Part shown: positions 30,570-35,282 of the stretch, piece by piece
Position numbering within the stretch: the first letter of the stretch is position 1
How the letters are laid out: every line of letters starts with the position of its first letter
Source of the DNA: Microcella indica
GTDB taxonomy: Bacteria; Actinomycetota; Actinomycetes; Actinomycetales; Microbacteriaceae
Reading direction: 5' to 3'
Assembly: GCF_013414345.1 (NCBI RefSeq)
Contig: NZ_CP058670.1
Location: 1,674,001 to 1,738,000 of the forward strand
Length of the DNA: 64,000 bases
Program-made: the position numbers and the translations under genes
Notes under the pieces: model-generated
What the model saw: the letters and a program-made list of their open reading frames with translations, nothing else
Told to the model about the DNA's origin: nothing
The model's database searches: none

Positions 30570-30787
30570 GTGTCGCGTGCACACTCACCGCGAGGACGAC
30601 AGAGCCCGATGGGTCTGCCGCGGTACCACCCCGCTTGCCCTCGTCACCTCGGTCTCGCACGTGCGGTACCGGATGCTCGGGCCCCTCATCTGCGGCTGTG
30701 ACGGGCCTGCCCCGCTCGGGTCTAGTACCCCACCTGCGGTGAGGGTTCTTCCGAGGACTCCCCGGTGATGGCCGGATCGCAGTCGAT
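30570..30787 (-). promoter_or_regulatory. T-box riboswitch of ileS (translational type)
   Basis: The core T-box motif AGCGGGGTGGTACCGCGG is at 30618-30635 on the minus strand. About 130 bases earlier a compact stem CCGG-CC-ATC-A-CCGG presents ATC (30767-30769) in its loop, an isoleucine codon, as in the short stem I of actinobacterial ileS T-boxes. No T-run terminator lies before the gene; instead CGAGG and CCTCG blocks around the T-box and the downstream GGAG ribosome site suggest control of translation. Uncharged tRNA-Ile should favour expression. Confidence 0.9.
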
Positions 30788-30799: not shown

Positions 30800-30850
30800 G
30801 GGCACCGGCGACGTGCGGAAACCGAACGCCCTCGCTCGGGTGGCGAGCAT

Positions 30851-30895
30851 CGTCACGCTGCCGTCACGCTCCCGTCACGCACGGGGGCGCATTCT
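30851..30895 (+). promoter_or_regulatory. Three 11-bp-spaced direct repeats with a -10 element
   Basis: CGTCACGC occurs at 30851, 30862 and 30873, exactly one helical turn apart. A CATTCT hexamer (30890-30895) begins 9 bases after the last copy and could be the -10. Repeats in 11-bp steps just upstream of the -10 are the binding pattern of SARP activators, and also of PhoP-type OmpR proteins. A SARP-like gene lies one gene downstream (31855-32640). Confidence 0.6.
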
Positions 30896-30942
30896 GAAGG
30901 ATGCGCGGGGGGACTGCGCTTTCTTTGCCGTTCGGGGGAACA

Positions 30943-31824
30943 GTGACCAGCACTCAGCGCCACACACCATCGATGCTCGCGAGAGCGATGAGCATGATGG
31001 GCATCGCGGTGCTGGCGGGCGCCCTGCTCAGCGTGGGCGGAGTCAGTTCGCCGGCGCTCGCCGCGCCGTTCGATCAGTGCGAGAGCGCCTTCAACGTCGG
31101 CGGCGAAGGGGCGAACTGCCAGGTGACGGTGGAGAACTTCCTCAACCTCGACACCAGAGCCGAGAGCTCAACCGTCACGACGCTCGTCTGCAGCGGCGCC
31201 GCCAACACGGTGACCACGTGCGCCGGCGAGCCGACCGTGCAGAGCTTCGACGTTCTCACGGAACGGGTGGAGCAGTGCAACTACAGCGGCGAGGGCGGCG
31301 GTGGCACGCTGCACTGCAGCGTCGAGATGATCAACACCATCACGGGCGAGGGCACGACGAGTGCACCCACGGTGAATCAGTGCAACAACTCGTTCGATTC
31401 ACTGCCGCTACCGGCAGGTTCCGCCTGCGATCCCGCGCAAGCGACGACCGATGCCACCATCACGCAGTGCAACGACAGCATGAACGGCGGCACGCAGGTC
31501 AGCATGAACTGCACGGTCGGAACGTCGACGACGAGCTCGGCCCTGCCCGTGACGGTCAACCAGTGCAACAACAGCGTGAACGGCGGCGGCGCCCTCCTGG
31601 TGTGCTCGACGCAGATCACGACTCTCGTGCTGCCCGCGGACACCGACGATGAGGTCGCCGACGAGGGCACCGGCGACGACACCGTTGCCGACGACGCTGA
31701 CGTCCTCGCCGAGACTGGCCCCACCGCCGTGCACGCAGCCCTCGGCGGACTCGCTCTCGCACTCGTGCTCGCCGGCGTCGGCCTCCTCCGTGCGCGCCGG
31801 CCTGTGCAGGCGCGCAGGGAGTAG
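30943..31824 (+). CDS. Secreted Cys-repeat surface protein with LAETG sorting signal
   Basis: A 293-residue exported protein of unknown function. A signal peptide ends near ALAA (residues 38-41). Five modules of the form (D/E/N/T)QC(N/E)xS...GGG...C(S/T)V start near residues 45, 111, 146, 175 and 207; most have one Cys at each end, so each may close as a disulfide loop. An acidic linker (residues 232-253) leads to LAETG at 255-259, a hydrophobic helix and RARRPVQARR, a complete cell-wall sorting signal of the class-E sortase type. The GTG at 30943 has GGGGGA upstream; an ATG at 30901 is an alternative without a site. Confidence 0.82.
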   Translation: MTSTQRHTPSMLARAMSMMGIAVLAGALLSVGGVSSPALAAPFDQCESAFNVGGEGANCQVTVENFLNLDTRAESSTVTTLVCSGAANTVTTCAGEPTVQSFDVLTERVEQCNYSGEGGGGTLHCSVEMINTITGEGTTSAPTVNQCNNSFDSLPLPAGSACDPAQATTDATITQCNDSMNGGTQVSMNCTVGTSTTSSALPVTVNQCNNSVNGGGALLVCSTQITTLVLPADTDDEVADEGTGDDTVADDADVLAETGPTAVHAALGGLALALVLAGVGLLRARRPVQARRE

Positions 31825-31854
31825 CGCTAGCGTTCGGCGCAGGGAAGGTCGTTC

Positions 31855-32640
31855 ATGACCGGAATCGCACTGCAGCTGCTGGGGTCGTTCGACGTGAGGA
31901 CGGCGGACGGCGCGTCGGTCGCGAGCACTGCAGGCACACAACGCCTCGTCGCCCTGCTCGCGCTGCGGTCGCGCATCATCTCGCGCGCCGCGATCGCGGG
32001 TGCTCTCTGGCCGGATGCGTCGAGTTCGCTCGGCGCCGTGCGGCTGCGCGCCGCCCTCACCCGGATCGACCCCGTCACCCGTACGGTGCTGCTCGTGAGC
32101 GCGGGCGGTGTCGGCCTGGACCCGCGGTGCACCGTGGACTATCGCTCTGCTCGCGTGCTCGCCGACCACGTTCTCGACACTGCCGCCGAGCCGACGACCG
32201 CGACCGCCGGCGAGACGCGATCGACGATCGCCGTTCTCTGCCTGCAGCTGCTGCCCGACTTCTACGACGACTGGGCGCTCGAGGAGGCGGAGGAGTGGCG
32301 CCTCATGCGGGCCGAGACCCTCGAGTCGCTCGTCGCCTCGCTCTCGCGAGACGCGCGGCCGTACCTGGCCATGCACGCCGCCCAGTCGGCGATCCGCGAC
32401 GAGCCGCTGCGCGAGACCGCGCACGTCGCTCTCGTGCGCCTCCACATCGCCGCTGGCAACCACGGTGAGGCGCTCCGTGCCTTCACACGGTTCAGTGCGA
32501 CTCTCGCCGATGCCGTCGATGTGAGCCCGAGCGACGCCTTCCGCGAACTCATCGACGCGCTCCCCGGAGCGACCGCTCGCGCCGCAGTGACCGCCGACTC
32601 GGGAATGAACGCGCCAGCCGATACGCTCGACTACTTGTGA
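31855..32640 (+). CDS. SARP/BTAD-type transcriptional activator
   Basis: A 261-residue regulator. The N-terminal winged helix of SARP type covers residues about 1-90 (LQLLGSFDVRTADG, QRLVALLALRSRIISRAAIAGALWPD). A bacterial transcriptional activator (BTAD) helical domain follows (LLPDFYDDWALEEAEEWRLM, DEPLRETAHVALVRLHIAAGNHGEALRAFTRF). There is no ATPase or TPR extension, so it is a small SARP. GGGAAGG precedes the ATG. It follows the surface-protein gene by 30 bases and overlaps the MFS gene start by 4 bases. It probably controls this three-gene group through the 11-bp repeats. Confidence 0.85.
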   Translation: MTGIALQLLGSFDVRTADGASVASTAGTQRLVALLALRSRIISRAAIAGALWPDASSSLGAVRLRAALTRIDPVTRTVLLVSAGGVGLDPRCTVDYRSARVLADHVLDTAAEPTTATAGETRSTIAVLCLQLLPDFYDDWALEEAEEWRLMRAETLESLVASLSRDARPYLAMHAAQSAIRDEPLRETAHVALVRLHIAAGNHGEALRAFTRFSATLADAVDVSPSDAFRELIDALPGATARAAVTADSGMNAPADTLDYL

Positions 32641-34040: not shown

Positions 34041-35282
34041 TCAGCCGACGATCGATGTCGCCACGTGCACCGCGCCGGCGAGGGTGCGGTGCACGGGGCA
34101 CTTGTCGGCGATGACGCGCAACGACTCGACCTGCTCAGTGCTCAGATCACCCGTCATGGTGATCTCACGCGCGATGTGCTCGAGCATGCCCGATCGCGAA
34201 CCTGACTCCGCGTCGGCGTCGCTCGCGCACTCTGCGCAGTCGTCGACGTGGCGGCGTTCGTGCCGCAGCATGACCGTCACCCTCTCGAGCGGGATGCCCT
34301 TGCGGTCGGCGTACATGCGCATCGTCATCGACGTGCACGCGCCGAGCCCGGCGAGCACGAGGTCGTACGGGGAGGGCCCGGCGTCGTCGCCGATGGGCTC
34401 GGGCTCGTCGGCGAGGAACCGATGGCTGCCCGCCGTGACCGACTGCGTGAACGCGCCCGACGTCGTGCTCGACACTGTCACGGTGCCGGGTGAGGAAGCC
34501 GGAGCCTCCGCGGCTGCGTGGGCACGGGCATCCAGCGCATAGCGCGCCGCCCATGCCGCGATCATCGACGCCGCGAACGCCGAGTCGGCCGCGTCGGTGA
34601 GGAGGTGGTCGGCGCCGTCGAGCGCGACGAACGACTTGGGGTGCCGAGCCGCCTCGAAGATCTCGCGCGCGTTGTCGATGCCGACGATCTCGTCGAGGGG
34701 TGCGTGCAGCACGAGCAACGCGCGGTCGAGGCCGGCGATGCGCTCGTGCTGACGCTGCCCCGCGAGGTCGTCGAGCAGCTGTCTGCGGATGCGGAAGGTG
34801 CGGCCCGCGAGCTGCACATCGGCCTCGCCCTCGGTCGTGATGCTCTCCCGCGCCGCATCGAAGAGGGCCGTCACGTGGGAGGGATCGCTCGGGGCGCCGA
34901 TCGTCGCGACCGCGCGCACGCTCGGCACGCGCTCAGCGGCGGCGATCACGGCCGCACCGCCGAGGGAGTGGCCGATGAGCAGGGTGGGTGCGCGGTGCTC
35001 CTGCTCGAGGTACTCGGCCGCCGCCACGAGGTCGTCGATGTTGGAGGAGAAGTTCGTATTCGAGAAGTCGCCATCCGAGTCGCCGAGACCCGTGAAGTCG
35101 AACCGCAGTACCGCGATGCCGCTGCCCGTGAGGGCGCGCGCGATACGGGAGGCCGCCTTCGAATCCTTCGAGCACGTGAAGCAGTGCGCGAAGACGGCGT
35201 ACCCGCGCGGCTCGCCCTCCGGCATCTCGAGTCGGGCCGCGAGGCCGTGCCCCGCGGAACCCGGGAACTCAACCGCGAGCAT
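34041..35282 (-). CDS. Alpha/beta-hydrolase fused to OsmC domain
   Basis: A 413-residue two-domain protein. Residues 1-250 are an alpha/beta hydrolase with nucleophile elbow GHSLGG at 104-109 and a GLGDSDG oxyanion region. Residues about 270-413 are an OsmC/Ohr-like domain with both reactive-Cys segments (GLGACTSMTMRMYADRKG and DKCPVHRTL). OsmC proteins reduce organic hydroperoxides, so the fusion probably hydrolyses and detoxifies oxidised esters. It overlaps the FMN-reductase gene by 14 bases. It converges on the MFS gene with only 6 bases between stops. Confidence 0.92.
   Translation of the reverse strand: MLAVEFPGSAGHGLAARLEMPEGEPRGYAVFAHCFTCSKDSKAASRIARALTGSGIAVLRFDFTGLGDSDGDFSNTNFSSNIDDLVAAAEYLEQEHRAPTLLIGHSLGGAAVIAAAERVPSVRAVATIGAPSDPSHVTALFDAARESITTEGEADVQLAGRTFRIRRQLLDDLAGQRQHERIAGLDRALLVLHAPLDEIVGIDNAREIFEAARHPKSFVALDGADHLLTDAADSAFAASMIAAWAARYALDARAHAAAEAPASSPGTVTVSSTTSGAFTQSVTAGSHRFLADEPEPIGDDAGPSPYDLVLAGLGACTSMTMRMYADRKGIPLERVTVMLRHERRHVDDCAECASDADAESGSRSGMLEHIAREITMTGDLSTEQVESLRVIADKCPVHRTLAGAVHVATSIVG

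Follow-up and report, generated by a model that had tools for sequence, protein, structure and literature searches.

A candidate SARP-controlled surface-protein gene in Microcella indica and its relatives

A 64,000-nucleotide stretch of the Microcella indica genome (NCBI RefSeq assembly GCF_013414345.1, contig NZ_CP058670.1, positions 1,674,001 to 1,738,000 of the forward strand), referred to here as the window, was analysed for the control of a gene encoding a cysteine-repeat (Cys-repeat) surface protein. Microcella belongs to the Microbacteriaceae. The surface gene is preceded by an array of direct repeats and followed by a gene for a small regulator of the SARP family. The features of the locus, in window positions, are listed below.

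30851..30880, plus strand: candidate operator of three CGTCACGC copies in 11-bp steps at the expected -35 position; kept in orthologous loci with the SARP gene and absent from those without it
30890..30895, plus strand: -10-like hexamer CATTCT, 16 nt past the G of the last GTCAC; equal offset in 29 of 33 loci
30943..31824, plus strand: Cys-repeat protein with predicted export and wall-sorting signals, 293 residues, GTG start; no Pfam or NCBIfam match
31069..31632, plus strand: Cys-repeat domain, 188 residues, 12 Cys, the Cys invariant in 27 homologues; AlphaFold predicted local distance difference test score (pLDDT) 90.4, predicted template-modelling score (pTM) 0.87
31705..31719, plus strand: LAETG, a sorting motif of LPXTG-like type, with a hydrophobic segment and then a basic tail behind it; L255, T258 and G259 invariant in 28 rows
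31855..32640, plus strand: predicted small SARP-family activator, 261 residues, 30 bp past the surface gene; PF03704, with fold matches to AfsR and EmbR
32251..32559, plus strand: BTAD domain of the SARP, residues 133-235, by Pfam

Geometry of the repeat array

The sequence CGTCACGC occurs at 30851-30858, 30862-30869 and 30873-30880, in steps of exactly 11 bp, and nine bases separate the last copy from the CATTCT at 30890-30895. The repeats of SARP promoters are reported to be spaced by 11 or 22 bp, and 8 bp separate the -10 element from the nearest of them (PMC10936776). Within each 11-bp repeat AfsR contacts bases 1 to 8, and the -10 element of its target afsS is a poor one, CACTGT (PMC10936776). 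PimR is reported to require at least two repeats (PMC5930380). Because its geometry fits these published promoters, the array resembles a SARP operator whose read part would be (C)GTCACG. It combines direct repeats, 11-bp steps and a nearby -10 element; the 9 bp to the -10 element is a count that depends on the register chosen.

The closest comparison is the AfsR SARP domain at the afsS promoter of Streptomyces coelicolor (8HVR, 8K60; PMC10936776). The two systems share 11-bp direct repeats with 8 read and 3 free positions beside a poor -10 hexamer (CACTGT in afsS, CATTCT or CACTCT in the surface-gene loci), and their regulators share a DNA-binding plus BTAD fold. They differ in that the window regulator is a small SARP, that there are usually at least three (C)GTCACG repeats, and that the predicted target encodes a surface protein. 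DnrI, ActII-ORF4 and PimR (PMC5930380, PMC10972967) resemble the window regulator in their SARP domain and in operators where three heptamers in 11-bp units are possible, and PimR also in having a unique target. As described, these three belong to antibiotic clusters, whereas the window SARP adjoins a protein with wall-sorting signals.

The window genome (2.59 Mb) was scanned for three CGTCAC copies in 11-bp steps, tolerating at most two mismatches. The scan returned one exact site, the window array, and one site with two mismatches; a reversed-pattern control returned one site. A looser array of three GTNRC repeats was found in one of 6400 base-shuffled upstream regions. A repeat-pair scan allowing three mismatches found 7 pairs against 9.3 expected and is not significant by itself; its only conspicuous hits are the two exact pairs.

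The position of the -10 hexamer was compared at 33 loci, counting from the G of the last repeat, which was picked by rule in each locus. A hexamer with A at position 2 and T at position 6 stands at offset 16 in 29 of the 33, and any other offset between 8 and 30 is filled in at most four. Two of the exceptions lie one base off, at 15 (L050 and L101), and one has no fit (L084). In the last (L088) the rule overshot by one repeat unit, and by eye this locus fits offset 16 too. The counterparts of CATTCT in orthologues are mostly CACTCT, CACGCT, CACACT or GAGACT. No array lies ahead of the SARP gene itself in the gap that separates it from the surface gene at any of the 33 loci.

Joint occurrence of array and SARP gene

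At the Microbacteriaceae loci that carry the Cys-repeat surface gene, the 650 bp preceding the Cys domain were searched for a strict array, defined as three GTNRC repeats at 11-bp steps. The array was present in 27 of 32 loci with the SARP gene and 0 of 11 loci without it (Fisher p 7.6e-7 with the loci treated as independent, a value that overstates their independence because the loci are related). The five SARP-bearing loci without a strict array comprise four from Agreia, in which the proximal repeat is GTCAT, and one from Marisediminicola with two repeats. A motif-free measure of self-similarity gave the same step: the SARP-bearing loci peak at step 11 with a mean of 5.09 of 6, against at most 3.84 at the other steps from 8 to 15, and the loci without SARP reach 3.09 at step 11. 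Within Microcella the array is found in 6/6 genomes with the SARP gene and in 0/2 with the surface gene but no SARP gene. Another genus (g97) is concordant, with two loci that have both array and SARP gene and two that have neither.

The preliminary description of the window had read three copies in 11-bp steps, with a -10-like CATTCT nine bases on, as a SARP-type promoter, and had named a small SARP/BTAD gene one gene past the surface gene as the likely activator. The array lies exactly as described, the SARP gene occupies 31855-32640 with a PF03704 match, and the comparison of orthologous loci that it had proposed agrees with its reading: a locus retains or loses the array along with the SARP gene, and the -10 offset is fixed.

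The SARP search matched 17 of 60 relatives and 69 of 398 family genomes, the weaker matches being long or distant proteins, and up to ~8.7 kb was fetched around 48 further family matches. At the closer family matches the SARP gene mostly follows a Cys-repeat surface gene with the array upstream. The Cys gene was searched for independently, with a single protein in the genus (6 of 26 genomes) and a domain alignment in the family (37 of 398 genomes, a sample of the larger family). Eleven loci, nine from other genera and two from Microcella, have it without SARP in the stretch examined. Loci with SARP thus came from the SARP searches and those without it from the Cys-gene searches, not from one draw. 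A locus was scored as lacking SARP when no SARP-profile match fell within a stretch of 5.0-7.0 kb. Ten genomes are in this class: eight have no SARP match listed at all, and two (G187 and G410) have a distant match elsewhere only. In one genome (G003) a contig ends near the surface-gene locus.

Four sets of loci were left out of the 27/32 and 0/11 counts: two with SARP and a surface gene of another type, both with the array (L048, L051); four with SARP and no Cys gene (L091, L092, L097, L113); the remoter SARP paralogues without a Cys gene (L115-L130), of which 4/16 have a strict array somewhere in the region; and three order-level homologues (L132-L134), one with a strict array. At one of the remoter paralogues (L130), a further GTGAC array in 11-bp steps (GTGACTGAGGC repeated) lies ~760 bp before the SARP gene.

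Alternatively, the repeats could form a PHO box that PhoP occupies when phosphate is scarce: direct repeats at 11 bp are recognised by PhoP too, and in Streptomyces its sites overlap those of AfsR (PMC10972967, PMC7866108). The window repeats have TCAC in common with the PHO consensus and score 16/22 against it. A score of at least 16/22 is also reached by 54 of 260 window tiles, so the fit does not rise above background, and the pstS upstream region of the same genome, with GTTCACCTCCCGTTCACCGAGA and GTTCACC repeats, reaches 18/22. The pstS comparison holds for this one genome, because single pstS regions from three others (G013, G003 and G021) score only 15, 15 and 16. The array is also gone where the SARP gene is gone, though two such genomes (G003 and G013) have pstS-type genes. 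The PHO box, which the preliminary description had kept as an alternative, was rejected as the better reading on the scores against background and the pstS region; we regard it as very improbable.

The encoded proteins

The PF03704 match of the SARP passes the cut-off with an E value of 8.4e-12 and is the only BTAD match in the window genome. For the AlphaFold model of the SARP (33 family members; pLDDT 81.6), the only PDB matches with E <0.001 were AfsR (8k60 and 8hvr; E 5e-8 for 8k60) and EmbR (2ff4 and 2fez; E 2e-7 for 2ff4). A profile of the family aligned with AfsR over positions 3-232, nearly the full length, at E 1.2e-10; searches with the single sequence were weak (EmbR 0.0024, AfsR 0.17). 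Pfam gave no separate hit in the N-terminal part, where the fold matches and the profile alignment indicate an OmpR-type winged helix. EmbR of Mycobacterium tuberculosis (2FEZ, 2FF4) shares the SARP-type fold. It differs from the window protein by a C-terminal FHA domain. EmbR controls cell-envelope genes.

In several genera the SARP is part of a larger protein. Pfam placed an HxlR domain (PF01638) in frame and N-terminal to the SARP part (PF03704) in 7 of 10 proteins scanned (L090 4491-5702, L084, L086, L087, L091, L093 and L101), which gives these proteins two DNA-binding domains; the remaining three had entered the scan as the stand-alone SARP part. A purpose-made sequence motif recognised 12 HxlR-SARP fusions among 52 rows, equivalent to ~6 changes on the tree, and assigned the stand-alone form to the Microcella, Subtercola, Agreia and Clavibacter rows. 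The fused domain would equip the regulator with another winged helix, which may serve to sense a signal. In some genera the surface gene and the SARP gene appear separated by long gaps, and a third gene hidden there was considered and discarded, since the conserved gap sequence is the in-frame HxlR domain; the computed gaps are too long in the fusion loci for the same reason. In Agreia pratensis (L103/L191) a tandem pair of SARP genes adjoins the surface gene.

The surface gene most likely starts at the GTG at 30943 rather than the ATG at 30901, because a ribosome-site-like GGGGGA precedes the GTG and the resulting spacing agrees with the Microcella orthologues. The Cys-domain model is mainly beta strand. 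A Foldseek search of the PDB with it gave a best match of E 0.48, which is not significant; the best sequence relative in the PDB had E 0.09, and no consistent Pfam match emerged among the 27 Cys-domain homologues. The modelled domain may be a new fold, an absent Foldseek match being no proof of one, and its cysteines suggest disulfides.

The C-terminal features point to sortase anchoring. The L, T and G of LxxTG are invariant across the 28 aligned rows, and the Clavibacter form is LPVTG. The signal peptide was judged by eye. Sortase matches were present in 5/5 genomes tested, two of them in the window genome (G000). The protein thus combines a secretion signal, an LPXTG-like motif, a hydrophobic segment and a basic tail with a genomic sortase, and its anchoring is predicted from these. 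It resembles LPXTG wall-anchored proteins in all four of its own features and differs from them by the 12-Cys domain, which has no Pfam or significant PDB fold match. At two loci (L048 in G001 and L051 in G020) the array is the same and the Cys-repeat protein behind it is replaced by a 2-Cys protein of another kind that also has a sorting signal.

Proposed control and its genomic setting

It is very likely, from the conserved geometry and the joint occurrence, that the surface gene and the SARP gene form a two-gene module in which the SARP binds the three repeats and turns on the surface-protein gene. The mechanism we infer comprises SARP binding, activation, co-transcription, disulfide formation and anchoring. 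The small SARP from the second gene would bind side by side on the three 11-bp repeats, stand in for the absent -35 element and recruit RNA polymerase to CATTCT, a poor -10. The product switched on in this way would be a surface protein that is exported, anchored by sortase and stapled by disulfides. In Microcella the SARP gene is probably co-transcribed with the surface gene, because it lies only 30-58 bp behind it, and the regulator would reinforce itself. With no array before the SARP gene, this reinforcement needs read-through from the surface-gene promoter, which is plausible in Microcella, where the gap is short and no terminator was flagged, and less certain elsewhere. A simple terminator rule flags four of the 33 gaps between the two genes (L087, L095, L100 and L106).

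The best-known role of SARPs is the control of antibiotic clusters, and here one appears tied to a single surface protein. Its candidate operator can be recognised from the letters of the DNA and is missing where the SARP is missing. With a single BTAD match and a single exact site in 2.6 Mb, the genome offers a clean operator-regulator pair for studying how SARPs choose their DNA. The pair also points to an uncharacterised 12-Cys surface domain, for example in Clavibacter, Agreia and Subtercola, and offers a handle on its timing. No description of a surface gene and SARP pair was found among the titles and abstract openings listed in searches of a literature collection that lacks many subscription papers.

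At the level of the order, 396 genomes were searched for the Cys domain and two had it, both from the family of the window. A named-genome scan covered the best 80 of 102 relatives, and the evidence for Chloroflexota comes from these. The SARP relatives among these best 80 are from Glaciihabitans, Marisediminicola, Subtercola, Agreia, Clavibacter, Pseudolysinimonas and Rhodoglobus, and also from Streptomyces, Actinokineospora, metagenome bins labelled Chloroflexota and others. Five of the Chloroflexota-labelled bins (labels as given) have a SARP gene near a Cys-domain gene, and in two of them a full array lies before the Cys domain, at 219 bp (L166) and 200 bp (L208). Two more actinobacterial bins have both the Cys gene and SARP, one with the array (L150). 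A broader proposal, that a single-target SARP with an operator of three GTNACG repeats and a wall-anchored, new disulfide-stapled repeat fold extend across Actinomycetota and Chloroflexota, with an HxlR-SARP fusion as the switch in several genera, is tentative, and we hold it possible rather than probable.

Several observations weigh against SARP control of the surface gene. The window repeat GTCACG differs from the AfsR repeat as published, CGTT(T/C)ATCG. The SARP model superposes loosely on AfsR and EmbR (template-modelling score about 0.43, root-mean-square deviation about 8-12, and about 9 for AfsR). The loci compared are related and fall into 9 genera with SARP and 3 without. In one genome (G001, locus L048) the SARP frame is stopped at codon 52 with the array intact, where a sequencing error is possible. 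The fetched regions of the four loci with SARP and no Cys gene (L091, L092, L097 and L113) contain no strict array. The full array before the Cys gene is absent in three of the Chloroflexota-labelled bins (L157, L158 and L178, the last with two repeats) and in one actinobacterial bin with the Cys gene and SARP (L141).

A further point of this kind is that array and SARP gene would also be expected to occur together if both belonged to some other, unseen regulator. The array would then be read by a different factor of OmpR type or by an alternative sigma factor, and the SARP gene would be a passenger of the same segment. The array geometry is that published for SARPs, and the array is absent from all 11 copies of the surface gene that lack SARP. 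In addition, the array and the SARP gene were kept in the two genomes (G001 and G020) where the different 2-Cys protein replaces the surface protein. We consider a passenger role for the SARP most unlikely.

The third gene encodes an MFS transporter of the metabolite/H+ symporter type, scoring below the cut-off of that model, and starts at a GTG (32637) that overlaps the SARP stop codon (GTGA). Of the three-gene regulon suggested in the preliminary description, the part made up of surface gene and SARP is supported and the place of the transporter is not. Only 5 of the 32 regions with the pair contain a transporter homologue, four from Microcella and one from Pseudolysinimonas (L101), and two loci outside the 32 have one as well (L048 and L051). 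The transporter is found in 22/26 Microcella genomes and the SARP gene in 6/26. Thirteen Microcella genomes lack the pair; in these the starts of ileS and the transporter gene are 244-329 bp from each other, and no array is present. An essential place for the transporter in the regulon was rejected on these 13 genomes and on the 27 of 32 pair loci with no homologue in the fetched region. In Microcella the transporter could still be co-transcribed by read-through.

In Microcella the array sits between the divergent ileS and the surface gene. This position and the GTGA overlap would also suit a SARP that binds the repeats and controls ileS or the transporter instead of the surface gene, as would the Pseudolysinimonas locus, where the order ileS - surface gene - SARP - MFS is the same. 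At 27 of the 32 pair loci, though, the fetched region has neither a transporter nor an ileS match and the array still lies before the surface gene with the -10 hexamer on its strand, and the 13 congeners without the pair keep ileS and MFS together with no array. Such a target for the SARP is hardly credible beside the surface gene.

Because the Pseudolysinimonas locus has this order, the arrangement of ileS, pair and transporter either predates Microcella or arose twice. Loss of the pair from the 13 Microcella genomes is therefore as likely as its gain by insertion between ileS and the transporter. One Microcella genome (G013) has the Cys gene between ileS and the transporter with no SARP gene or array. 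Two others (G005 and G009) have the transporter and no ileS match in the fetched flank; other sequence may lie between ileS and MFS there.

In the ileS leader, on the minus strand at 30615-30632, lies a T-box-like stretch of GGGTGGTACCGCGG type. Rfam gave nothing at 30615-30632 even at E up to 10, and the stretch may be a short T-box of the actinobacterial kind that the model fails to detect. An ileS T-box was rejected as the cause of the conserved upstream region, since the T-box-like stretch is on the other strand, away from the array, and has no Rfam call. Further along the window, 34041-35282 on the minus strand encodes an alpha/beta hydrolase fused to an OsmC domain.
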